This document shows, in pieces, positions 984 to 59,978 of a stretch of 64,000 nucleotides of DNA. The position numbers and the translations under genes were made by a program. The notes under the pieces were generated by a model. That model was not told the DNA's origin. It was given only the letters and a program-made list of their open reading frames with translations, and searched no databases. The stretch covers positions 34,201 through 98,200 of the forward strand of contig JANYLR010000054.1 of NCBI GenBank assembly GCA_025363715.1, in the 5' to 3' direction. The stretch comes from Holophagaceae bacterium (lineage in GTDB: Bacteria > Acidobacteriota > Holophagae > Holophagales > Holophagaceae). Position 1 is the first letter of the stretch, and each line of letters starts with the position of its first letter.

Positions 984-2171
984 TTACAGGCTGAGGTTCT
1001 GGGAGCGCTTGATGATCTGCTCGAGCTTGGCTCCGGGATCCTTCATGCGCGTGAGGAACATGAGGGCGCTGATGATGAAGGGCTTGTAGGCGGCTTCCTG
1101 GTAGGTGGGGATGCGGTACTGCTCGAAGACCTCGGCGGAAACCTCACCGGCCTTGCAGCTCACATCGGTGATGTCCGCGGGCAGGCAGTGCATGTAGAGC
1201 GCCTTCTTGTTCGCGGTGGTGTCCATCTTCGCCCGGGTGCACTCCCAGTTCATGAACTTGGCGTTGTTGGCCAGGCACTCCTTCTCCAGGGCCTTGAGGC
1301 CATCCTTGTCCGAGGTCTTCAGGAGCTCGGTGCGGCGCTGCATGACATGGAAGGGAGCCCAGGACTTGGGGTACACGATATCGGCGCCGGCGAAGGCCTC
1401 TTCCATGCTGTTGGACACGGAGAACTTCCCGCCGGAGGCCGCGGCCTGCTTGCCGGCCAGTTCCACCACGTCGGGAATGAGGCCGTAGCCTTCGGGGTGG
1501 GCCAGGCGCACATCCATGCCGAAGCGGCTCATGAGGCCGATGATGCCCTGGGGCACCGAAAGGGGCTTGCCGTAGCTGGGGCTGTAGGCCCAGGTCATGG
1601 CGATCTTTTTGCCCTTCAGGTTCTCCAGGCTGCCGAAGTGGGATTTCAGCCAGGCCAGATCCGCCAGGGACTGGGTGGGATGGTCGATGTCGCACTGCAG
1701 GTTGATGAGGCTGGGACGGCGGTGCAGCACGCCCTGCTGGGTCCCGTCCGTGAGGGCGTCGCCCACCTCGCGCATGTACGAGTTGCCTTCGCCCAGGAAC
1801 ATGTCGTCGCGGATGCCGATCACTTCCGTGAGGAAGCTGATCATGTTGGCGGTCTCGCGCACGGTCTCACCGTGGGCCACCTGGCTCTTCTCCTCGTCCA
1901 GATCGGCCAGGCTCAGGCCCATGGCGCTGGCAGCGGAGGCGAAGCTGAAGCGGGTGCGGGTCGAGTTGTCGCGGAAGATCGAGATGGCCAGGCCCGTGTC
2001 GAAGGAGCGGAAGGACTTGCCGTCTTTGTGCAGGGTCTTGAGGGTATCGGCCAGGGTGAGGATGGCGCGGATCTCTTCTTCGGGGTGTTCCCAGGTGAGG
2101 AGGAAATCCTTTTCGAAGAGGTTGGTCTTCAGGGCCTGGAAGGCTTTGAGGTTGTCGGCGAGAGAGGGCAT
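984..2171 (-). CDS. ygeW: Knotted carbamoyltransferase YgeW family
   Basis: 395 aa; aspartate/ornithine carbamoyltransferase fold with FRDNSTRTRFSFASA, HPTQSLADL, MHCLPAD motifs; long YgeW-type central region; cluster context. Confidence 0.92.
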   Translation of the reverse strand: MPSLADNLKAFQALKTNLFEKDFLLTWEHPEEEIRAILTLADTLKTLHKDGKSFRSFDTGLAISIFRDNSTRTRFSFASAASAMGLSLADLDEEKSQVAHGETVRETANMISFLTEVIGIRDDMFLGEGNSYMREVGDALTDGTQQGVLHRRPSLINLQCDIDHPTQSLADLAWLKSHFGSLENLKGKKIAMTWAYSPSYGKPLSVPQGIIGLMSRFGMDVRLAHPEGYGLIPDVVELAGKQAAASGGKFSVSNSMEEAFAGADIVYPKSWAPFHVMQRRTELLKTSDKDGLKALEKECLANNAKFMNWECTRAKMDTTANKKALYMHCLPADITDVSCKAGEVSAEVFEQYRIPTYQEAAYKPFIISALMFLTRMKDPGAKLEQIIKRSQNLSL

Positions 2172-4837: not shown

Positions 4838-5749
4838 CTAGAAGTGGATTTCAAGAGCCGCCATGACGCAGGTCGTCTTGGGGTTCACGCCACCACCGGT
4901 GCCGGAAGCAGTAGCTGCGGCGGCGGTGGAGTAGGTGGGATCGCCGAACTTGTTGTCCCAGTACTCGAAGCCGGGGCCGATCTGCCAGGTGTTCTTCTTG
5001 CAGCCGAGGACCGGGCTGATATCGAACATCCAGAAGCCACGGAACAGGGTCTCGAGCTTGGTCTCAACGGCGGAGCCATCCTTGCCCTTGGCGCCGGTGA
5101 AGGTGGCGAAGCCCTTCACGGAGGTGTTGACCGGGCCGAGGGCCACGGGGATGCCCCAGGCGGCGGCGATCTGGTAGGTGCCCTTGAAGACGACATCGGT
5201 CGTTCCGCCCTGGGGAATCCTGAAGCCACCGAAGGCGTTGTGGTTCTTTTCCTTGTAGTAGAGCGCGCTGACGTTGAGGAAGCCGGGCACCTTGAAGTTG
5301 AAGGTGGGGCCCGCCATCAGCTTGTAGACCGCCGGGGCGAAGGTGGTGTTCTTGGCGGCGTAGTCAAAGCCGAAGGAGAAATCCATGCCGCGCACGGGCC
5401 CGAAGTCGATCTTGGTATCGAAGACCTTGCCCAGGCTCAGGTTGTGCTTGTAGGACACGTAGACTTCGTGGGCGCCCTGCTTCGCGAAGTTGGCATTGTT
5501 CTGGGCGTTGTTGGAGGGATCCGTGGCGCTGGAGGTCAGCATGTCCACGCTGAAGAAGTTGCTGCCCAGGGAATAGCCCGAGACATGGGTGAGGTTGAAG
5601 ATGTTCTTGGCCATGGAATCCGGGTTGGCCGGTTCCTGGAACTGGGTGCCGTAGCGGTAGCCGAAGGAGGTATCGCTCCAGTCAGCGGCACTGACGGGGA
5701 GGGCGGCCAGGGCGACGATGCCCAGGGCAGTGAGGGTGAGCTTTTTCAT
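4838..5749 (-). CDS. Outer-membrane beta-barrel, nucleoside-channel Tsx-like
   Basis: From ATG 5749: MKKLTLTALGIVALAALPVSAADWSDTSFGYRYGTQF...; signal peptide, amphipathic repeats, C-terminal aromatic (ALEIHF). Located inside the purine/nucleoside block. Confidence 0.7.
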   Translation of the reverse strand: MKKLTLTALGIVALAALPVSAADWSDTSFGYRYGTQFQEPANPDSMAKNIFNLTHVSGYSLGSNFFSVDMLTSSATDPSNNAQNNANFAKQGAHEVYVSYKHNLSLGKVFDTKIDFGPVRGMDFSFGFDYAAKNTTFAPAVYKLMAGPTFNFKVPGFLNVSALYYKEKNHNAFGGFRIPQGGTTDVVFKGTYQIAAAWGIPVALGPVNTSVKGFATFTGAKGKDGSAVETKLETLFRGFWMFDISPVLGCKKNTWQIGPGFEYWDNKFGDPTYSTAAAATASGTGGGVNPKTTCVMAALEIHF

Positions 5750-6016
5750 GCGTGTCTCCGGTGGAGTGGGTGGCCAGGGATTCCTGGTCCGCACGTTGGG
5801 GTGGGGGTGGGGGGGTGAAGCGGGTGCAGCAAAGGCTTTGATGTGGCAAGGCTGTGTGGGATTGGTTACAGGATGGACATCCACGGCGAGATGGAACATC
5901 GGCAGGGTGCAAGCACGCGTTCCGGCTGTGGAAGGGCCCACCAGATCTTGTTTTTCAAGGAAAGGTTAAAATAGAAACCCCTAAGGTCAACAAAAAATTT
6001 CGCTGGTGAAAATTTT

Positions 6017-9000
6017 TTACCTAGAGGCTGAAACCAGGGCAGGAAGTGCCACTTCGACACTCAACAGGGCGATCAGTGTGGCGCAGGCTTGCAGGTCGAT
6101 CGGGGTGCCCTCGGGCAAGACGGCCGCGGCTTTCCAATCCAGCAAGGCCCAGGTTCCAGCCTGCAACCGGACAGTGATCTGGTCGCTCCGGTACTGGACT
6201 GTGTCGCCGATCACTTCCAGGCTTAAGGCCTGGCTGCCCAGCCGGGCTTGGATGGCGAGGCCAGCAGCCCGCCGGACGAATCGGAAGGCATCGCCCTTGG
6301 CCTCCCGGAAGCCCTCTTCGTCGATCCAGAAGCGGGGCTTGTCCCGGTAGGGTGAGCCCGCCGCAGGGCAGAACGAATCGCAGTTGCCGCACTCGTTGCA
6401 GTAGTCGGCGATGTTGAGGGTCTGGACCCGCTGATCCACGCGGAAGGTCTGGGCGCCCTCGGCCACGAGCCGGCCCTGCCGCTGCACCAGCTGGGGCAGC
6501 TGCAGGCTGAAGGGCTCGATGCCGTAGGCCATATTGGCCCGGTTGGGACAGACCGTGACGCAAAGGCTGCAGAGGTCATCGCAGTCCAGGCAGCGGCTGG
6601 CCTCCAGGGCGGCGGACTCGGCGGTGAAGGGCTTGAGCACTTCGTCGAAGCCGTGCCGGTCCGTCAGGGGCAGCACGGGCACCTTCTGGGCCCCCACTAG
6701 GCGGCCCTTCTTCTCCATGAGGGCCGCGTCCGCCTGGCCCTTCTCCAGCAGGGGCTCGGGCCTTAGCTCCACGCCATGGCGGGTCGCGATGGCCTCGGCC
6801 ACCGCCCGGCCGTCGGCGATGGCGAGGATCACGGAAGAAGCGCCGTGCACCACGTCGCCCCCCGCGAACAGGCCAGGCACCGAAGTCTCCCGGGTGCGGG
6901 GGTCCACCACCAGGTAGCCGTTGCTGTTGCGCTGGACCTCCAGACCCTCCAGGAAGTCCAGCACCGCCTCCTGGCTGATGGCCGAGATGATGGTGTCGGC
7001 GGGCAGCACGACTTCGCTGCCCTCTACGGGCACAGGGCGGGGCCGACCCGAGGCATCCCGCTCGCCCAGCCGCATGCGGGTGCAGGAGAGACCAGTGACC
7101 TTGCCGCCTTCAACCACAACACGAGCCGGGGCCACCAGATCCCGGATCTGGATGCCCTCCTCGACGCAGTCATGGACCTCAGCGGGATCCGCGGGCATCT
7201 GGGCTCGGGTGCGCCGGTAGACGATGGTCACCTCGCCGCCCGGCACCAGCCGGATGGCGGAGCGCACCGCATCCATGGCGGAGTTGCCGGCGCCGATGAC
7301 CAGGATGCGCTGGCCCAGATCCATGGGCGTGCCCGCCCGCACCTTGTCGAGGAAGTCCAGGGCATCCATGACGCCGGTCGTGTCTTCGCCGGGGATCCCC
7401 AGGCGCTTGCCCTTCTGGGCCCCCACTGCCAGGAAGACATGGGGATAGTCCCGGCGCAGCCCGGCCAGAGTGAAATCCCGACCCAGGACCTGGCCCAGAT
7501 GGATCTGGACACCAAGTTCCCGCAGGCGGACCAGATCCCCTTCCAGGGTTTCGTTCGGCAGCCGGTAGGCCGGGATCAGGCCGCCCACCATGCCGCCCAG
7601 TTCATGCTTGGCTTCGAAAACCTCCGCGTCGAAACCCATCTTGGCCAGGAAGTAGGCCGCGGAGAGGCCCGCGGGACCGGCGCCCACGATGGCCACCTTC
7701 ACGCCGATGGACCTGCCCCGCACCTCAGCGGGAAGCGGTCCCGCGTTCTCGAAGGCGAAGCGCTTGATCTCGCGGATGGCCAGGGGCGCGTCGTAGAAGT
7801 TGCGGACGCAGCGCTCCGTGCAGGGGTGGTCACAGACGCTGCCCGTGATGCCCGGCTGGGGGTTGGTGCGGAGGATGACCTCCATGGCCTCGGCGGGCTT
7901 GCCATGGGCCACCAGCCACAGGTAGTCGGGAATGTTCTGGTTGGTGGGGCAGGCGTCCACGCAGGGCGCGTTGATGCAGTCGAAGTGACCCAGGGGGCGA
8001 TCCCCCTTGAAGTCCAGGGGCCGGGTGCGGCGCACATAGGCGTCATCGCCCAGGACCTTCACCGCGTGCCGGGCCAGGTTGAAGCGGGCGCCATGGCCGC
8101 CCGAGCTGGCCTGCACGAAGGTGTCGAGGCTGTCCGCCCCGGCCTCGTCCATGGCGGCTTCGAGGTTCACCAGGTACTGCTGGAGGCGTGCGTAGCCGCC
8201 GGGCTTGAGCAGGTCGGTGCAGACCGTCACGGGGCCCAGGTCGTCGGCGATGAGGTCCGGGAAGTTGCGGGCATCGGCGCCGCCGCAGAAGCTGAGGGGC
8301 ACCTGCCCTTCCGTTTCTTCCATCACCAGATGGGCCAGGGTCAGAGTGATCGGGTGCAGCGCCCGACCCGAGAGATACATCATCTTTTCGCTGGTGGGGA
8401 AGACGGGCCGGTGGTTCACCACCTCGAGCGTGTTGGTGAGCTTGAGACCGAAGCTGTTCTCCGTGCCCTTCGCCACCTGGGCCAGCCGCTTCACCATGGC
8501 CATGGCGTCATCCCACTTGGGATCGTGGCCGAAGGCCTCGTCGGGGACAGTAATATCGAAGCCGAGGGTGTCATTCAGCAACCCGCGCAGCCGCTCGGGA
8601 CCGAGCAGTGTGGGGTTGAGCTTCACCCAGGTGTGCACGCCAGCTCGGTGAGGAGGAACTTGGCGATGCGTTCGATCTCCGCCGGCGGGCAGCCATGCAT
8701 GGTAGAGAGGGTGATCTGGTTGGAGAGCTCGGTCGGAATGGCGATGTCCCGCACGCCGGGGTAGATCTTGGCCACGGTGTCGATGGCCTCGGCGAGGCGT
8801 GGTCCGGCGTTCCGCATGTCCGCGATGAACTTCTGCACCCGTGGATGCTGGATGCCCTCCAGGTTGTAGCCCACGCTCATGCTGAAGTGGGTGCCGGGAC
8901 TCTTGAGCCCCATCTTGTGGGCGAGCGCGTGGATGAGCACCCAGCCGTTGAGGTACTCCGTGAAGGATTCCTCCAGCTTCAGTTCCTGGGACCACTCGCA

Positions 9001-9318
9001 GTTGTAGGTCTCGTCGGCCGCATCGATGCAGGGCCGGCTCACCTCGATCTCGTCGAGGATCTGCACGGTCTTCAGCTCGATGAACCGGGCCCCGCAGAGC
9101 CAGCTGGACACGATGTTCTGGGACAGCTGGGTGTGGGGGCCCGCCGCCACGCCCAGGGGCGCAGCGACGGTGTGCCCGAACATCTCCCGCGCCAGCCTGG
9201 CGTGGGGGATCTGGAAGTTCTGCTTCGGGATGCCGAGGACGTCCTCCCGTGAATCCAGCTCATGGAAGATCCAGCCGCTGAGCAGCTCGAGGGAAGCGGA
9301 GCGGAAGGCTTTTTCCAT
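6017..9318 (-). CDS. ygfK: YgfK-like selenate-reductase-family Fe-S/flavin oxidoreductase, split by an apparent frameshift near 8640
   Basis: N-terminal 231 aa frame (8623..9318) ends ...RIAKFLLTELACTPG*; homology continues in another frame as HTWVKLNPTLLGPERL...; C-term GltD-like (GAGPAGLSAAYFL) and ferredoxin CxxC clusters. Confidence 0.88.
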
Positions 9319-10980: not shown

Positions 10981-13587
10981 TCAGGTCTTGTTCTTCTTGC
11001 CGAGCAGTTTCATTTCCTTGAGAGGAAGGGTCGTCCGACGGATGCCGTCGAACTGGCAGAGGGCGTTGGCCACGGCACCGGCAGTGGGCACCAGGCCGAT
11101 CTCCCCCACGCCCTTGGCGCCGTATGGTCCCACCGCGTCCGGCACCTCGATGCCGATGATCTCCATGGGCGGCATGTCCTTGGCCCGAATGAGCCCAAGA
11201 TCGGCCATCTTGAGCGATACCGGTCGGCCGTCCTTGTAGGGGAATTCCTCGGTCACGGCGTAGCCCAGACCCATGTGCAGGGAGCCTTCGATCTGGCCTT
11301 CGTACAGGGTGGGGTTCATGATCTTGCCTGCGTCGTGCGCCGCGGTGATCCGGGTGATCTTGCCGGTCTCATCCAACTCCACCAGCTGCGCGGCGAAGCC
11401 GAAGGAGTAGTGGGTGATCACGTCGTAGCCGGGCTTGGCCGGCTTGCCGGGCGGCACGGTCCAGTCGCAGACCCAGCTGCCCCGGTATTCCTTCCCCACC
11501 AGATCCTTGAGGCTCAGACCCGAGGCCAGGTCCTTCTTCAGGTCTTTGCAGGCGGCGATCACGGAGTTGGCGAGCAGTGACGTGCCGCGGGAGCCGGTGG
11601 TCATGCCGGCTTCGGCTTCCTCGTTGGTCTCGACCAGTACCTCGATGTACTCCGGGGCGATGCCGGTCTCCTCCACCAGGGTCTGCACACCCATGGTGTA
11701 GTTGCCCTGCCCCATCTCGCACCAGCCGTGGTGGAGCTCCACCCGGTCCGCGGCCTTGATGACGATCTTGGCGTGGCTGAAGTCCGCCAGGCCGCAGCCG
11801 ATGCCGGTGTTCTTCATGCCCGCGGCGATCCCGGCGCACTTGGCGGCGTAGAAGCGGTCCTTGAGTGCCTCCAGGCACTTGCGGACGCCCACCCCGGCGG
11901 TGAGGGTCTGGCCCGTGGCGATAGTCCGCCCCTCGGTGAGGGCGTTGTCCCAGCGGAACTGCCAGCGGTCGAAGCCGCCCAGCTTGCACAGCTCGTCCAG
12001 GCAGGACTCGAAGGCGAAGTTGGACTGGTTGACGCCGAAGCCGCGAAAGGCACCGCAGGGGGCGTTGTTGGTGACCACCGCCGTGCCGTGTACCTGCACG
12101 TTGGGCATGTAGTAGGCCGCGGCCGAGTGGGAAACGGCCCGCTCGATCACCGCCAGCCCGACGCTGGAATAGGCGCCGCTATCCGAGTGCATGGTGACCA
12201 CCATGCCCGTCAGGCGACCAGCCTTGTCACAGCCCACGGCGTAGTCCATCACGATCGGATGGCGCTTGGTGTGCATGCACAGGGATTCCTTGCGGGTGAG
12301 CTTCACCATGGCGGGCCGGCCCGTCAGCCAGGCCAACAGGGTCGCGTGGCTCTGGGTGGTGATGTCCTCCTTGCCGCCGAAGCCGCCGCCGTTCTGCACC
12401 TGCACCACGTTCACGAGGGCATTGGGCAGGCCCAGCATCAGCGCCAGCTGGTGGCGATCCTCGTAGACGCCCTGGCTGCAGCTGTAGACCTTCACGCCGG
12501 GCTGCCCGTCCTTCTGCCAGGGCAGGGACAGCGTGGCCTCGGGCTCCAGGAAGGCGTGCTCCACCCGCTGGGTGGTGAAGCGGTTGCGGGTCACGAAGGC
12601 CGAACCTGCCAGGGCGGCCTCGGCGTCCCCCACCTTCACGGCGGCCCGGTGCAGCACGTTGCCCGCGAACATGGGGTGGACCTGATCGGATTCGGGGCGC
12701 AGAGCCTCGAACACATCGGTGACGGGGCTGAGCACCTCGTACTCCACCTTCACCAGGGCCGCGGCCTTCCGGGCGATGGCTTCCGTCTCCGCCGCCACCG
12801 TGGCCAGCACATCACCAATGAAGCAGGTGGTCTCGCCCTCGGCCACCAGCACGGGCCAGTCCATGGTGATGGAGCCCATGTGGCGCTTGGCGGGAACATC
12901 CTTTGCAAGGAGCACCTTGACCACACCTGGAACGGCCTCGGCCTCGGAGATGTCGATCTTCAGCACCTTGGCCCGCGGGTGGTCCGAGAAGCGCATGGCT
13001 CCAAAGATCATGCCGGGTTCCTTCATGTCGCCCACGAAGACCCGGTCGCCCAGGACGGCTTCCCGGCCAGAATACTTCCCGTGGCGCGTGCCCACGCGAC
13101 CCGTGCCCTGGGGCATGACCACGGCCTTGTTCTCCCGGAAGGCCTCGGCGGCGCACTCAATCGAATCGATGACCTTCTTGTAGCCCGTACACCGGCAGAT
13201 GTTCCCGGAGAGCCCGCCGGCGATTTCATCTCGCGTGGGGTTCGGATTCTTGTCCAGCATCGCCTTGGCCTTCATCACGATGCCCGGCGTACAGAAGCCG
13301 CACTGCACACCGCCCTTGACCACGAAGGCATCCGCGAAGACCTCCCGCTCCCGGCCCGTCAGGCCCTCGGCGGTGACCAGGGACTTGCCTGCCAGGTCCT
13401 TCATCTTCATCCGGCAGCTCAGGCGCGCCGCGCCGTCCACCAGCACCGTGCAGCAGCCGCAGACCCCCTCGCCGGAGCAGCCATCCTTGGGGCTGATGAG
13501 ACCCGCGACCTCGCGAAGGTACGAGAGGACCTCCATCTCGGGGTCGGCCTCGAAACGCGTGAGCTGACCGTTGAGCGTGAATTCCAT
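10981..13587 (-). CDS. Selenium-dependent xanthine dehydrogenase-type molybdenum hydroxylase (fused 2Fe-2S and Mo domains)
   Basis: 868 aa; N-term [2Fe-2S] DGCSGEGVCGCCTVLVDG and CGFCTPGIVMKAKAML...GNICRCTGYKKVIDSI; Mo domain QNGGGFGGKED, CGAFRGFGVNQ, GVGEIGLVPTAGAVANAL. Confidence 0.88.
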   Translation of the reverse strand: MEFTLNGQLTRFEADPEMEVLSYLREVAGLISPKDGCSGEGVCGCCTVLVDGAARLSCRMKMKDLAGKSLVTAEGLTGREREVFADAFVVKGGVQCGFCTPGIVMKAKAMLDKNPNPTRDEIAGGLSGNICRCTGYKKVIDSIECAAEAFRENKAVVMPQGTGRVGTRHGKYSGREAVLGDRVFVGDMKEPGMIFGAMRFSDHPRAKVLKIDISEAEAVPGVVKVLLAKDVPAKRHMGSITMDWPVLVAEGETTCFIGDVLATVAAETEAIARKAAALVKVEYEVLSPVTDVFEALRPESDQVHPMFAGNVLHRAAVKVGDAEAALAGSAFVTRNRFTTQRVEHAFLEPEATLSLPWQKDGQPGVKVYSCSQGVYEDRHQLALMLGLPNALVNVVQVQNGGGFGGKEDITTQSHATLLAWLTGRPAMVKLTRKESLCMHTKRHPIVMDYAVGCDKAGRLTGMVVTMHSDSGAYSSVGLAVIERAVSHSAAAYYMPNVQVHGTAVVTNNAPCGAFRGFGVNQSNFAFESCLDELCKLGGFDRWQFRWDNALTEGRTIATGQTLTAGVGVRKCLEALKDRFYAAKCAGIAAGMKNTGIGCGLADFSHAKIVIKAADRVELHHGWCEMGQGNYTMGVQTLVEETGIAPEYIEVLVETNEEAEAGMTTGSRGTSLLANSVIAACKDLKKDLASGLSLKDLVGKEYRGSWVCDWTVPPGKPAKPGYDVITHYSFGFAAQLVELDETGKITRITAAHDAGKIMNPTLYEGQIEGSLHMGLGYAVTEEFPYKDGRPVSLKMADLGLIRAKDMPPMEIIGIEVPDAVGPYGAKGVGEIGLVPTAGAVANALCQFDGIRRTTLPLKEMKLLGKKNKT

Positions 13588-13650
13588 GGGTCCCTCTCCT
13601 CTTCATTCTAGAAATCGCAAGAGGTAGAACAATATTTTTTCTCTCGTGAT

Positions 13651-13680
13651 TAATTTTTTGTACTCGCCGTCACGAATCCC
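13651..13680 (-). promoter_or_regulatory. Copy A of conserved 30-bp AT-rich intergenic motif upstream of the Se-XDH-like gene
   Basis: taattttttgtactcgccgtcacgaatccc; first 15 nt identical to copy B (14823-14852); about 25/30 overall, ungapped. Confidence 0.55.
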
Positions 13681-13796
13681 CCACTCCGAAGGACCTGCGA
13701 TCCGGATTGGTCTGACTTCAAGTGACCATCGCAGGGTTTAATATAACCTCTTTGTCAACTTCATCTAGACAGGGAATGAGCCCCTGCCTTTCCCGA

Positions 13797-14741
13797 TCAG
13801 GGGACGATGTGCGTGCCGCCCCGGCCGGCCAGCGCGATGCCGAGATGGGCCGGATCCGTGACGATGGCCTCCTTGCCGCCCTGCTCGAGAAAGTCCACCA
13901 CGGCCTGGATCTTGGGCAGCATGCTGCCGGGCTTGAAGTGGCCCTCGGCGATGTACTGCTTCGCCTCGGCGAGGGTGATTTTGTCCAGACTCCGCTGGGT
14001 GGGCTTGCCGAAGTCCAGGCAGACCTTCTCCACGGCGGTGGAGATGACCAGCAGGTCTGCTCCCAGTTGCTGGGCGAGAAGGCTGGAGGCCAGGTCCTTG
14101 TCGATGACGGCCGCTGCCCCGGAAATCTGTCCGGCCGCATCCTCCACCACGGCGATGCCACCGCCGCCGCAGGCGATCACCACCGCGCCCGCATCCAGGA
14201 GCGTCTTGACCACTGGCAGCTCGAGGACCCGCTTTGGCGTCGGCGAGGCCACGACCCGCCGCCAGCCGCGCCCAGCATCCTCCACCAGCTCCCAGCCATC
14301 CTTCTCGCGGTGGGCCTGGGCTTGCTCCAGGCTCATGAAGGACCCGATGGGCTTGTTGGGCCGGAGGAAGGCTGGATCCTGGGCGTCCACCAGGACCTGG
14401 GTGACCACGGTGGCGGCCACGCGCCCCATGCCCCGCTTCTTGAACGCGTTGTGGAGCGCGCACTGCAGGTGGTAGCCCAGGGCGCCCTGGGTATCGGCCA
14501 CGCAGCTGTCGAGAGGCACCATGTGCAACTCGGGGGCGGCCAGCTCGGAGCGGCGCAGGATAAAGCCCACCTGGGGTCCATTGCCGTGAGTGACCACCAG
14601 CCGGAGTTCCTCGGACTCGAGCATCGTGGCGATATGCTCGCAGGTCTGCACCGCGGCCTGGTACTGGTCCGGGACCTGGGTGTGGTCGTTGTCGGAGATG
14701 AGGGAGTTGCCCCCGATGGCGATGACTACAGTGCGGGTCAT
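13797..14741 (-). CDS. arcC: Carbamate kinase (copy 1)
   Basis: MTRTVVIAIGGNSLISD...VTHGNGPQVG...EDAGRGWRRVV...AVIDKDLASSLLA...; start ATG 14741 (ORF track 14756). Confidence 0.92.
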   Translation of the reverse strand: MTRTVVIAIGGNSLISDNDHTQVPDQYQAAVQTCEHIATMLESEELRLVVTHGNGPQVGFILRRSELAAPELHMVPLDSCVADTQGALGYHLQCALHNAFKKRGMGRVAATVVTQVLVDAQDPAFLRPNKPIGSFMSLEQAQAHREKDGWELVEDAGRGWRRVVASPTPKRVLELPVVKTLLDAGAVVIACGGGGIAVVEDAAGQISGAAAVIDKDLASSLLAQQLGADLLVISTAVEKVCLDFGKPTQRSLDKITLAEAKQYIAEGHFKPGSMLPKIQAVVDFLEQGGKEAIVTDPAHLGIALAGRGGTHIVP

Positions 14742-14822
14742 GTCGATTCCCCTCAAAGAGGTTGGAGGCTGAAAGGAGGCGGCGCCATCAGGTCGGATGG
14801 ACTAATTTTTATCTATTATAGA

Positions 14823-14852
14823 TAATTTTTTGTACTCCGCATCACAAGTCTC
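14823..14852 (-). promoter_or_regulatory. Copy B of conserved 30-bp motif upstream of carbamate kinase 1, next to a 15-bp palindrome
   Basis: taattttttgtactccgcatcacaagtctc; adjacent palindrome tatctattatagata at 14810-14824. Confidence 0.55.
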
Positions 14853-14891: not shown

Positions 14892-15839
14892 TCAGTCGCG
14901 GACGATGCGGGTGCCGACGGTGGCGGGGTCCTCGGTGGCCAGGGCCTCGGCGGTGGTGATGAGCACCTCGTGACCGCCCCCTTCCAGGTAGGCCAGGGCG
15001 CTTTCGATTTTGGGCCCCATGCTGCCCGGCGGGAACTGGCCTTCGGCCAGGTGCTTCCGGGCCTCGCTGGCGCTGAGCCGGTCCACCCAGCGCTGGCTGG
15101 GCTTGCCGAAGTCGATGGCCACCTTGGCCACACCCGTGAGGATGATGAAGAGGTCGGCGCCCAGCTGGGCCGCCAGCAGGGCGCTGAGCCGGTCCTTGTC
15201 GATGACGGCCTCCACGCCCACCAGAAAGCCGCTGGCATCCCGGATCACGGGGATGCCACCGCCACCGCCGGCGATCACCGAACTGCCGGACTGGAGCAGC
15301 AGCTTGATGGCCTCCAGCTGGACGATTTCCAGGGGTTTGGGTGAAGGCACCACCTTGCGCCAGCCCCGGCCCGAATCCTCCTTCATCTTCCAGCGCTTGG
15401 AGCGCATCAGCTCCAGGGCCCGGAACTCAGGATAGAAGGGACCTACAGGTTTCGTCGGGTCCTGGAAGCCCCGGTCCTCCTTGTCCACCACCACTTCGGT
15501 GAGCACGGTGGTGACCGGCGTGTCGATCCCCAGGAAGCGCAGCCGGTTGATGAGCATGCGCTCCAGCAGGTAGCCCATGGACCCCTGGGTCATGGCGCCG
15601 CAGACATCCAGGCTGTAGGGCGGGATCTGGCCCGAACCGGCTTCCTGCTGGATGAGGATGTTGCCCACCTGCGGGCCGTTGCCATGCACCACGCACAGCG
15701 CGTAGCCCTCGGCCACCACCCGGGCCAGCATCTCCGCCGTCTCCCGGGCGTTCTCCTGCTGCTCCTCCTGGAGCCCGCGCTCCTTCTCCTTAAGCAGCGC
15801 GTTGCCGCCGATGGCCAATAGTGCGATTTTTCGGGTCAT
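14892..15839 (-). CDS. arcC: Carbamate kinase (copy 2)
   Basis: 315 aa; MTRKIALLAIGGNALLKEKERG...VVHGNGPQVGN...EDSGRGWRKVVPSP...AVIDKDRLSALLA. Confidence 0.92.
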   Translation of the reverse strand: MTRKIALLAIGGNALLKEKERGLQEEQQENARETAEMLARVVAEGYALCVVHGNGPQVGNILIQQEAGSGQIPPYSLDVCGAMTQGSMGYLLERMLINRLRFLGIDTPVTTVLTEVVVDKEDRGFQDPTKPVGPFYPEFRALELMRSKRWKMKEDSGRGWRKVVPSPKPLEIVQLEAIKLLLQSGSSVIAGGGGGIPVIRDASGFLVGVEAVIDKDRLSALLAAQLGADLFIILTGVAKVAIDFGKPSQRWVDRLSASEARKHLAEGQFPPGSMGPKIESALAYLEGGGHEVLITTAEALATEDPATVGTRIVRD

Positions 15840-21677: not shown

Positions 21678-22745
21678 CTACTTCCTGCGGCGGACCAGCC
21701 GGGGCCGGAAGTTGATGAACACGTCGGAGCCCAGCAGGAAGAACAGCAGCATGCCCTGGAAGACCTTGGAGATCGAGGAGGGCAGAGCGAGGTACTGCTG
21801 GGCCTGCTCGCCGCCCATGTAGAGCAGGGCCATGAGCAGGCTGGAGAAGAGGATGCCGATGGGGCTGAGTCGGCCCACGAAGGCCACGATCATGGCGGCA
21901 AAGCCATAGCCGGGGCTGATGTGCTCGGTGATCTGGCCGATGGGTCCGGCCACCTCCGAGATGCCCGCGACGCCGGCCATGGCCCCACCCGCCAGCATAC
22001 CGATCCAGACCGAGCGCTTGGCGGAAAAGCCCGCATAGCGGCCCGCGAACTCCGCCTGGCCAGCCACCTTCATCTGGTAGCCCATGAAGCTGCGGTTCAT
22101 GAAGACCCAGCCCACCACCAGGGCCCCCAGGGCAAACACCAGGGCGGCGTTCACCCGCGTCCCCGCCAGCAGGATGGGGAGGGTGGCCGTGGCCGAGAAC
22201 AGCTTGGTCTGGGGGAAGTTGAAGCCGTCCGGGTCCTTCCAGGGGCCATGCACCAGCCAGGACACCATGAGCTCGGCCACATAGACGAGCATCAGGCTGG
22301 TGAGGATCTCGTTGGCGTTGAACCGGGTCCGCAGGAAGGCCGGAATGGCGGCCCAGAGCATGCCGCCCAGGGCCCCCGCGATGATCATGGAAGGCAGCAG
22401 GAAAGGGCTGTTGCTGCCTTCGAAACGGAGGGCCAGCCAGCCGCCCGCCAGGGCGCCGATGAGCAGCTGGCCCTCAGCGCCAATGTTCCAGACATTCGCC
22501 TTGAACCCCACCGATAGGCCCACCGCACAAAGCATCAGGGGAGTGGCCTTGAGGAACAGCTCGGCCACTCCGTAGGAATCCTTCAGGGGATTCATGAAGA
22601 AGACCTTGAAGCCCTCCACCGGGCTCTTGCCCAGGATGAGGAAGAGGATCAGGCCGCTCAGGAACATCAAGCCCACCGCCAGTATGGGCGAGAGGTAGGT
22701 CATGGCCTTGGAGGGCTCGGGCCGGGGCTCGAACTTAAGCCACAT
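21678..22745 (-). CDS. ABC transporter permease (nucleoside-type, NupP/YufP-like)
   Basis: 355 aa; KANVWNIGAEGQLLIGALAG motif, multi-TM. Confidence 0.87.
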   Translation of the reverse strand: MWLKFEPRPEPSKAMTYLSPILAVGLMFLSGLILFLILGKSPVEGFKVFFMNPLKDSYGVAELFLKATPLMLCAVGLSVGFKANVWNIGAEGQLLIGALAGGWLALRFEGSNSPFLLPSMIIAGALGGMLWAAIPAFLRTRFNANEILTSLMLVYVAELMVSWLVHGPWKDPDGFNFPQTKLFSATATLPILLAGTRVNAALVFALGALVVGWVFMNRSFMGYQMKVAGQAEFAGRYAGFSAKRSVWIGMLAGGAMAGVAGISEVAGPIGQITEHISPGYGFAAMIVAFVGRLSPIGILFSSLLMALLYMGGEQAQQYLALPSSISKVFQGMLLFFLLGSDVFINFRPRLVRRRK

Positions 22746-24309
22746 GGCTGGCCCCCTCCGGCGTCTTGGCGCCGGGCCACAGGCCGCTCATCCACATGCC
22801 GATCTCCTCGACGTTGGTATCTGAGGTGACTTTGCTGGGCGACAGGCTGCCCTTGGCGATCACCTGGATTCGGTCGCAGATCTCGAACAGCTCCTCCAAC
22901 TCCTCGGAGATCACCAGCACCGCCGAACCGGAATTGCGCAGATCCAGGACCGACTGCCGGATGAAGGACGAGGCGCCCACGTCCACTCCCCAGGTGGGCT
23001 GGGCCAGCACGAGCACCTTGGGTTCCTGCATGATCTCGCGGCCCACGATGAACTTCTGAAGGTTGCCCCCGGACAGGGACTTGGCCTCGGAATGAGCGCC
23101 ACCGCATTTGACATCGAAGCGCTTGATGCACTCCTCCGCGAAGCGCTTGGCCACGCCGAACCGGATGAGGCCAGCGAAGAGCATGCCCTTGCGGTAGGCC
23201 GTGAGCAGGATGTTCTCCGTGAGGGAGAGCCGCGGCACGGCCCCCCGTCCCAGGCGCTCCTCGGGCACGAAGCACATGCCCAGCCCACGGCGCCGGGCCG
23301 GATTCAAGTGGCCCACAGGGACGCCGCACAATTCGACAGCATGCTTGTCGGCCAGGGGTTCCTCGCCGGAGATGGCCCGGAGCAGCTCCTGCTGGCCGTT
23401 GCCGGACACGCCCGCGATGCCTACGATCTCTCCGCTCCGCACCTCCAGGTGGATGTCCTTGAGGTCCGTGCCGAAGGGATCGTCCGTGGCGTGAGACAAC
23501 CCCTGGATGCGCAGCCGCACTTCGCCGCCATCCTCGGGCTCCCCGTGGCAGCAGGCCGGCAGGTCCACCCCGATCATCAGGCGGGCCATGGTCTGCGGCG
23601 TTTCCTCGGAAGGGGTGCAGGTGCCGGTGACCTTGCCGCCCCGCAGCACCGTGGCCTTGTGGCAGAGCTCCTGGATCTCATCCAGCTTGTGGCTGATGTA
23701 GAGGATGCTCACCCCTTCGGCCGCCAGCTGCCGCAGGGTCTCGAAGAGCTTGCGCACGGCCTGGGGCGTCAGCACCGAGGTGGGCTCGTCCAGGATCAGG
23801 AGCCTGGGGTTCTGCAGCAGGCAGCGGATGATCTCCACCCGCTGCCGCTCCCCCACGGACAGGGCATGGACCATCCGGCGGGGATCCACGGGCAGGCCGT
23901 AGCGCTCGGAGACCTCCTCAATGCGCTTGGCGAGCGCGGCCAGCTCCAGCTTGCCCGGGATGGACAAGGCCACGTTCTGCACCACGGTGAGCGTCTCGAA
24001 CAACGAGAAGTGCTGGAACACCATCCCGATGCCCAGGGCCCGGGCCTGGGCGGGATTGGAGACCGTCACCGGCTGGCCTTCCCAGAGGATCTCGCCTTCG
24101 TCCGGGCGGATGACCCCGTAGATCACCTTCATCAGGGTGGACTTGCCCGCGCCGTTCTCCCCCAGCACCGCGTGGATCTCGCCGGGCATGACCGTGAGGT
24201 CGATGCCGTCATTGGCCACCACCGATGGATAGACTTTGCGGATTCCCCGGATGGCTAGCCTGGGCATATCAGAGGGCTGGGTGGGCATCGGGCCTGCTCG
24301 GTGGGTCAA
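22735..24309 (-). CDS. ABC transporter ATP-binding protein (tandem ATPase domains, NupO/YufO-like)
   Basis: 524 aa; LGENGAGKSTLMKVIYG, LSVGERQRVEI, second domain LSGGNLQKFIVGREI. Start may be internal (MPRLAIRGI). Confidence 0.9.
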   Translation of the reverse strand: MTHRAGPMPTQPSDMPRLAIRGIRKVYPSVVANDGIDLTVMPGEIHAVLGENGAGKSTLMKVIYGVIRPDEGEILWEGQPVTVSNPAQARALGIGMVFQHFSLFETLTVVQNVALSIPGKLELAALAKRIEEVSERYGLPVDPRRMVHALSVGERQRVEIIRCLLQNPRLLILDEPTSVLTPQAVRKLFETLRQLAAEGVSILYISHKLDEIQELCHKATVLRGGKVTGTCTPSEETPQTMARLMIGVDLPACCHGEPEDGGEVRLRIQGLSHATDDPFGTDLKDIHLEVRSGEIVGIAGVSGNGQQELLRAISGEEPLADKHAVELCGVPVGHLNPARRRGLGMCFVPEERLGRGAVPRLSLTENILLTAYRKGMLFAGLIRFGVAKRFAEECIKRFDVKCGGAHSEAKSLSGGNLQKFIVGREIMQEPKVLVLAQPTWGVDVGASSFIRQSVLDLRNSGSAVLVISEELEELFEICDRIQVIAKGSLSPSKVTSDTNVEEIGMWMSGLWPGAKTPEGASHVA

Positions 24310-24530
24310 CGGGGAGGGGTGGGTTGGTCCTGAAGCGGAAGGAGTGCAGAATCCTGGCGGGAGGCCCTGGATAAGGATGTCAGGCCTGGGCGAGGGTGTT
24401 CGAAGGTTGAGGGAGCGAAAAACAGGCGGCTCGGAATGGGGTCGAGTATGATTTTTTTCTCACATAAGTCAAATTTTTTCACTATGATCGAATCCGCATC
24501 TCGGCACCCATAGGACTCGTTTCGATTCAA

Positions 24531-25052
24531 ATGACTGATTTACGAGCCGTTTCATTCGACAGGATTGCCATGACCTCCGTTCCGGATTCCCAGGCCCATA
24601 TGCGCCGAGCCATCGAACTCTCTCGGATCCACATGGAGGCGGGGGAAGGCGGTCCCTTCGGGGCAGTGGTGGTGAAAGACGGCCTGATCATCGGGGAAGG
24701 CTGGAACCGGGTGACCTCCACTTGCGATCCCACCGCCCACGCCGAAGTAGTGGCTATCCGCCAGGCCTGCGGCCACTTGGGCGCCTTTTCCCTGAGGGGC
24801 TGCGAGATCTACACCAGCTGCGAACCCTGCCCCATGTGCCTCGCCGCCATCTATTGGGCCCGGCTCGACCGGATCTGGTACGCCAACAACCAGGCGGACG
24901 CTGCCGCCATCCAGTTCGACGACCAATGGCTCTACCGGGAAGTAGCCCTGCCGATCGGGAACCGGAGCCTCCCCGCGAAGAGTCTGCTGCGGGCCGAGGC
25001 CCTGACTGTCTTCCAGGCCTGGGACGCGAAACCGGACAAGACCCGCTACTGA
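24531..25052 (+). CDS. guaD: Guanine deaminase (cytidine-deaminase fold)
   Basis: 173 aa; PTAHAEVVAIR and TSCEPCPMCLAAIYWARLDRIWYANNQADAAAIQFDD. Confidence 0.9.
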   Translation: MTDLRAVSFDRIAMTSVPDSQAHMRRAIELSRIHMEAGEGGPFGAVVVKDGLIIGEGWNRVTSTCDPTAHAEVVAIRQACGHLGAFSLRGCEIYTSCEPCPMCLAAIYWARLDRIWYANNQADAAAIQFDDQWLYREVALPIGNRSLPAKSLLRAEALTVFQAWDAKPDKTRY

Positions 25053-53603: not shown

Positions 53604-53766
53604 GCCCAACGGGGCGCCGCCGGAGGCGCGTGTCGATGCGGTCCAAATGGTTGTTCAAACAATTAATTTTTTTTATAATTATGTTTTATTTTTTAATTTT
53701 TACTTATTTCAATGTCCGCCCAATCTGATGGAAGACGAACCGCCTGCGCAATTTCAAGGAGTCTCC

Positions 53767-59628: not shown

Positions 59629-59978
59629 CCCTCCATGATAGGCATGGAGGGGCTTGAGTGCCCCCGAAGTGCCCTGATCGCCCGTTCTACGGGGATCTTT
59701 GCAATCCATGGGACTTACAGTCAAGCATTTCCGCCCTTTTCGATGTTCCATGCCCAACCGAAGCCCCCAGCGGCGCCGCTCTCCGATTTTTTTTTAAAGA
59801 AAAACCTTGACCATGCTGCGTCTGCGGCGTAGTTTCTTGGCAGTTTAGGGAATACAGGATTCATAGGCCTTTCGGGGCCCTTGATGTTCGGAAACCCAGC
59901 AAAATCGGCCGTCCCCTCTCGGTGACGTTTCCGTTTCTTTCAACCCGGGGATACAGTTCCCCAATTTCGGAGGTTCTC

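Follow-up and report, generated by a model that had tools for sequence, protein, structure and literature searches.

A predicted operator of a Holophagaceae purine-catabolism regulon, present in at least four copies within one gene cluster

An AT-rich, imperfect palindrome of ~35 bp, ACAAAAATTTTATC-N3..7-GATAAAATTATTG, is probably the operator of a purine-catabolism regulon in Holophagaceae, its copies being the predicted binding sites of one transcription factor. We place it in this putative class because it precedes several functionally linked units, is rare in the genome, is conserved at orthologous genes and has dyad symmetry. The window, the 64,000-nt stretch of DNA that was analyzed, corresponds to positions 34201-98200 of contig C114 (C114:34201-98200) of the source genome, a member of Holophagaceae; related genomes are labeled G0xx. 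The genome was scanned with patterns and with covariance models built from sequence only.

Results

The repeat is one half of a longer dyad

The initial annotation had noticed a repeat ahead of two minus-strand genes and proposed a shared promoter/operator. The 15-mer at its core, TAATTTTTTGTACTC, is identical in copies A and B at the positions claimed (Table 1). These are its sole matches in the 3,425,555 bases of the genome, against none in the reversed control, and no third place in the window matches at two or fewer mismatches (100 shuffles gave 0). The agreement of the 30-mers, given as 25/30, came to 24/30 when counted ungapped; the repeat continues to 52 nt at 71% identity. Start codons on the minus strand, said to lie about 65-80 bp away, were measured at 64 bp (ATG 13587) and 82 bp (ATG 14741), and the GC-rich surroundings (~0.65 GC) do drop to 0.45-0.50 at the gaps that hold the copies. 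A 15-bp palindrome reported at copy B is present, and the gene behind copy A, called Se-XDH-like, scored 873 against the NCBIfam TIGR03311 cut-off of 830, identifying a selenium-dependent xanthine dehydrogenase (SeXDH).

Two things had been missed. Comparison of the DNA upstream of SeXDH orthologs showed the 15-mer to be the upstream (distal) half of a more extensive element, and the profiles described below located additional copies of that element in the window, at 5985-6021 and 24440-24482. The motif is thus shared by A and B as claimed and is not private to them; the window contains four copies or more. Random recurrence of the 15-mer and lack of conservation upstream of orthologs had been named as grounds for abandoning the proposal. 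It survives both: orthologous genes across Holophagaceae keep the element upstream, and it does not occur all over the genome.

On the coding strand, SeXDH promoters read ACAAAAATTTTATC, a short spacer, GATAAAATTATTG, a -35 hexamer (TTGACC/TTGTTC) and, after a 16-bp spacer, a -10 hexamer (TAGAAT/TAAAAT). The two A-tract halves of the dyad are ~18-21 bp, or two helical turns, apart. Over 31 sites the dyad score was 315, compared with 253.6 (sd 5.4) in shuffles, and the symmetry extends to G/C positions (ATC...GAT, CCG...CGG, GTC...GAC). The strongest dyads are GTCAAAAAATTTTTGTC-GTA-GACAAAAAATTATCAC (RidA, G041) and the SeXDH site of G043; individual sites with weak symmetry exist, operator A among them. 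The inner spacing of the halves varies from 3 to 7 nt, which is unusual for a rigid dimer site and counts against the operator reading. The distance from element to start codon varies from ~65 to 300 bp.

Table 1. Positions of the repeat, the predicted operators and neighboring features in the window.
Feature	Position	Strand	Evidence or remark
15-mer, copy A	13651..13665	+	exact match, unique pair in genome; coding-strand reading GAGTACAAAAAATTA
15-mer, copy B	14823..14837	+	exact match
Predicted operator A, before SeXDH	13627..13663	-	GTACAAAAAATTAATCACGAGAGAAAAAATATTGTTC; R1 17.4 bits, R2 14.6 bits; aligned with orthologous promoters
Predicted operator B, before carbamate kinase 2	14802..14835	-	GTACAAAAAATTATCTATAATAGATAAAAATTAG; R2 10.8 bits, rank 5 genome-wide; dyad 11/15 pairs, 0/500 shuffles
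Third copy, between ABC transporter operon (-) and deaminase gene (+)	24440..24482	-	R1 15.8 bits, R2 ~11.6 bits; also in G044, G032, G043
Fourth copy, upstream of porin gene	5985..6021	-	R2 16.3 bits, genome best; also in G038, G043, G045, G047
-35 hexamer TTGTTC, SeXDH promoter	13627..13632	-	TTGnnn at same place in 15/15 SeXDH promoters examined
-10 hexamer TAGAAT, SeXDH promoter	13605..13610	-	16-bp spacer in 15/15 SeXDH promoters examined
GTGACGGCGAGTAC flank of operator A	13660..13673	-	common to G044, G030, G028
GTGATGCGGAGTAC flank of operator B	14832..14845	-	sequence
15-bp palindrome inside operator B	14810..14824	+	tatctattatagata
SeXDH	10981..13587	-	NCBIfam TIGR03311 above cut-off
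Carbamate kinase 2	13797..14741	-	NCBIfam NF009007; behind ygeW in relatives
Carbamate kinase 1, gene preceding operator B	14892..15839	-	in relatives (e.g. G044, G030), operator and SeXDH come directly after it
Outer-membrane barrel (porin)	4838..5749	-	closest fold nucleoside channel Tsx; AlphaFold2 mean pLDDT 71; Foldseek top match 1tlw, E 1.4e-8
Porin promoter TTGACC-16-TAACCT	5963..5990	-	read from sequence; spacing as in SeXDH promoters
BMP/PnrA-type ABC transporter operon, first gene (ATPase)	22735..24270	-	Pfam PF00005; PF02608 in same operon
Deaminase gene, divergent from ABC operon	24531..25052	+	Pfam PF00383

A conserved promoter follows copy A

Copy A is followed by a sigma-70 promoter of the form TTGnnn-16-TAnAnT, found in all 15 SeXDH promoters examined. 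As this -35/-10 pair comes directly after the element, the real SeXDH promoter lies downstream of the 30-mer (13605-13632), and transcription is predicted to start at about 13598. The operator half of the original proposal therefore stands and the 30-mer itself is not the promoter. Copy A is similar in sequence to the SeXDH promoters of the close relatives that lack a full carbamate kinase 2 (GGGGGATTCGTGACGG), which makes copy B the extra copy.

The SeXDH proteins of two relatives, G028 and G032, are only 71% identical to that of the window, their YgeY proteins being 92-96% identical, and the G028 promoter is still window-like (locus L076, SeXDH at 5611-8205); this pattern suggests gene replacement by recombination. 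The SeXDH of Thermoanaerobaculia MAG Bin_89R (L258), a bin assigned to another class, is likewise 71% identical to that of the window and lacks the operator; its presence there reflects either a transfer or a misbinning.

Profiles from other genomes point to purine genes

Two profiles were built entirely from other genomes, R1 from 11 SeXDH promoters and R2 from 27 sites; E-values of models of this type are rough. In the window, R1 gave clear matches at SeXDH, in the gap between the ABC transporter and deaminase genes and in the porin gap, and a weak one at copy B. Over the whole genome, R2 ranked the porin site first, copy A second, the ABC site fourth (~11.6-11.7 bits) and copy B fifth. The third-ranked place (C19:4454, 12.0 bits) is within coding DNA and was set aside as a chance match. 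Four of the top five places thus fall within a 22-kb purine cluster. The probability of this by chance is ~1e-8 assuming uniform placement, a generous figure that ignores the AT-richness of intergenic DNA and on which the conclusion does not depend. Almost all genes matched by the profile in this genome are purine genes. Two AT-rich stretches lie away from purine genes, at 53660-53701 and 59786-59811; one is AAAAATTAAAAAATAAAACATAATTATAAAAAAAATTAATT and the other a weak R1/R2 match.

Across the family, the best profile matches lie upstream of SeXDH, the NCS2 xanthine permease (TIGR03173), RidA-like proteins, Fe-ADH, BMP/ABC transporters and the porin. G065 had supplied none of the model's sites; there, the top match in the scanned loci directly precedes a YgeY-YgfK-xanthine permease-porin series. 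No element was found upstream of SeXDH in the loci tested from Bdellovibrionota, Elusimicrobiota, Chloroflexota and others; in the loci examined, it is restricted to Holophagaceae. The porin matched no sequence family, and its modeled fold suggests a Tsx-like channel.

The cluster contains the gene kit known from the reductive uric-acid pathway (PMC12507026). The cluster runs on to the left of the window (C114:23700-34000, L149) with a uracil permease, an RpiR regulator, a deaminase, a second BMP-type ABC transporter, an SsnA-like deaminase and a PALP enzyme. Within the window, ygfK (6017-9318, minus strand) is split at ~8640 by a one-base deletion relative to 17 aligned relatives, which is either real or an assembly error; in G028 a separate frame break lies a few bases further on.

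Copy B accompanies a relocated carbamate kinase gene

In other members of the genus, carbamate kinase 2 sits after ygeW. Here it separates carbamate kinase 1 from SeXDH, two genes that are direct neighbors in G044 and G030, and the ygeW of the window (984-2171) stands without it. The gene is absent from G044, G028 and G032, and besides carbamate kinase 1 G030 yielded only a 48% partial match. This arrangement suggests that copy B was gained together with the relocated gene, probably by duplication from a SeXDH promoter. A scan of the minus strand at copy B found no -35/-10 pair 16-18 bp apart and no match at the conserved place. With the conserved -35/-10 missing, a promoter role for copy B is unsupported, and we infer that it is a predicted operator rather than a full promoter. 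Its dyad is better than that of copy A. The only other close match to its flank in the genome, TTGTGATCCGGATTACAA at C84:19270-19287 (L034), is a near-perfect CRP/FNR-like palindrome in the gap between two genes.

An RpiR-family gene is the best candidate regulator

An RpiR-family gene with HTH_6 and SIS domains occupies C114:25161-26063, 8 kb to the left of the window, among purine genes. Of the 28 genomes with SeXDH, 26 have its ortholog, as against 3 of the 49 others (Fisher 5e-15). The motif (6.6-15.8 bits, partly weak) precedes a deaminase-RpiR operon in five genomes, all belonging to one subclade; it is missing at the RpiR gene of the source genome and at most relatives' RpiR promoters. 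G030 and G041, both incomplete genomes, have the motif, and no RpiR ortholog was found in them. The RpiR/SIS family has so far been tied mainly to sugar phosphates. We tentatively regard this protein as the best candidate for the cognate regulator, at somewhat less than even confidence; it stays a candidate because the co-occurrence may also stem from co-inheritance of the cluster. A bolder version is a long shot: an RpiR/SIS protein would be the purine master regulator in Holophagaceae, and the two copies A and B, which flank the relocated carbamate kinase gene at a distance of 1.17 kb from each other, would form a looping operator pair.

PucR was considered and rejected as the regulator: the source genome encodes no full-length protein, only partial HTH matches to PF13556. 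Within the SeXDH clusters, no shared unknown gene resembled a transcription factor that might act locally. A literature search turned up no work on how this cluster is regulated in Geothrix/Holophaga, nor any on an RpiR regulator of purine genes.

Discussion

Several other readings of the element deserve weighing. Phased A-tracts upstream of a -35 hexamer could be UP elements, which boost a promoter through the RNA polymerase alpha subunit with no specific regulator. The composition of the element does resemble the UP-element consensus, and at SeXDH and the porin the A-tracts stop right before a good -35, a true likeness to known UP elements. However, the Holophagaceae element is palindromic, down to its G/C positions, is nearly confined to one gene set where a generic enhancer would not be, and is also present without a matching -35 at the ABC site and copy B, so that we hold this explanation to be improbable. 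Still less probable is that the repeats are promoters, with the TATAAT of copy B as the -10 box of a carbamate kinase promoter. The hexamer, noted in the initial annotation, is perfect and on the coding strand, but it has no -35 match 16-18 bp upstream. It belongs to the spacer of the dyad, which is not conserved, and is missing from copy A and the other sites; in copy A the conserved promoter is found downstream of the element. Riboswitches often control purine genes, and a purine-sensing cis-acting RNA, either riboswitch or leader, might be supposed here. It is scarcely credible: the element lies upstream of the -35 and hence outside the transcript from that promoter, no Rfam family reaches its gathering score within the window, and the distance to the start codon is too variable to favor it.

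Two further alternatives concern copy B in particular. It reads TTGTGATGCGGAGTACAA, like a TTGTGA-N6-TCACAA box, which raises the question of a CRP/FNR-type site; GTGAYGSSGAGTAC occurs in both A and B, with at most one change in G044, G030 and G028, and the genome has one further near-match. Yet the right half fails to match, most relatives lack the flank and keep the A-tract dyad, and the generic pattern is little enriched (31 occurrences vs 19 in the reversed control), leaving this a very slim prospect. A more serious proposal is that the rearrangement of carbamate kinase 2 left copy B behind without a function, which would be compatible with copy A as a working operator. The missing promoter after B and the closest relatives' lack of a full carbamate kinase 2 agree with it, but B is the more perfect dyad (11/15 pairs, 0/500 shuffles) and an independent model ranks it fifth in the genome. 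Decay would not keep both the dyad and that rank, and we consider the leftover explanation unlikely, if clearly less so than the others. An operator bound by one transcription factor is the reading we prefer.

Among known systems, the predicted regulon is most readily set beside that of PucR of Bacillus subtilis, a purine-catabolism regulon (Schultz et al. 2001, as cited in PMC12507026). As in PucR-type regulons, one operator family precedes xanthine dehydrogenase, transport and breakdown genes; unlike in PucR regulons, the dyad is different, much longer and AT-rich, and the genome has no full-length PucR. The uric-acid cluster of E. coli and Clostridioides difficile shares the XDH homolog, YgfK, SsnA-like, HyuA-like, YgeW, YgeY and carbamate kinase (PMC12507026). 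This reductive pathway was characterized biochemically only in 2025, in a study that mentions a native Crp site of the E. coli operon, between ygeV and ygeW, does not discuss a dedicated regulator and does not mention Acidobacteriota (PMC12507026). Operators of the RpiR family include the TTGT-N7-8-ACAA of HexR and the 15-bp and 28-29-bp pseudo-palindromes of RccR (PMC5489143). The latter, with their linker of variable length, are like the present element (PMC5489143), whereas RccR half-sites are TGTAGT/ACTACA in place of the A-tract halves of the predicted operator. The regulon element is new, and of an ordinary kind.

In the mechanism that we propose, one transcription factor would bind copies A and B and control the purine regulon of Holophagaceae. 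Its uptake arm would comprise the Tsx-like porin, the BMP-type ABC transporter and, in relatives, the xanthine permease, for nucleosides and purines; the breakdown arm would consist of SeXDH, YgeY, YgfK and carbamate kinase, acting anaerobically on uric acid and xanthine. Protein binding to the element is itself a prediction. At SeXDH and the porin the last bases of the element are those of the -35 hexamer, which would place a bound protein at about -65 to -30. We lean slightly toward a repressor, which a purine or a metabolite derived from one would release, over an activator, because the promoter hexamers are fairly good and because, in genus g9, a related dyad lies within the carbamate kinase 2 promoter, between its -35 and -10. 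A position reaching upstream of the -35 would also suit an activator. Copy B may serve local control, act as a roadblock to read-through or be a partner of copy A.

The moved carbamate kinase gene now stands behind a predicted operator of the same regulon. The predicted operator also ties transport genes (Tsx-like porin, BMP-type ABC transporter and xanthine permease) and RidA to the pathway. For the anaerobic breakdown of purines and uric acid in Acidobacteriota, a little-studied phylum, there is now a predicted operator that can be tested, together with a promoter, a set of genes and a candidate regulator.
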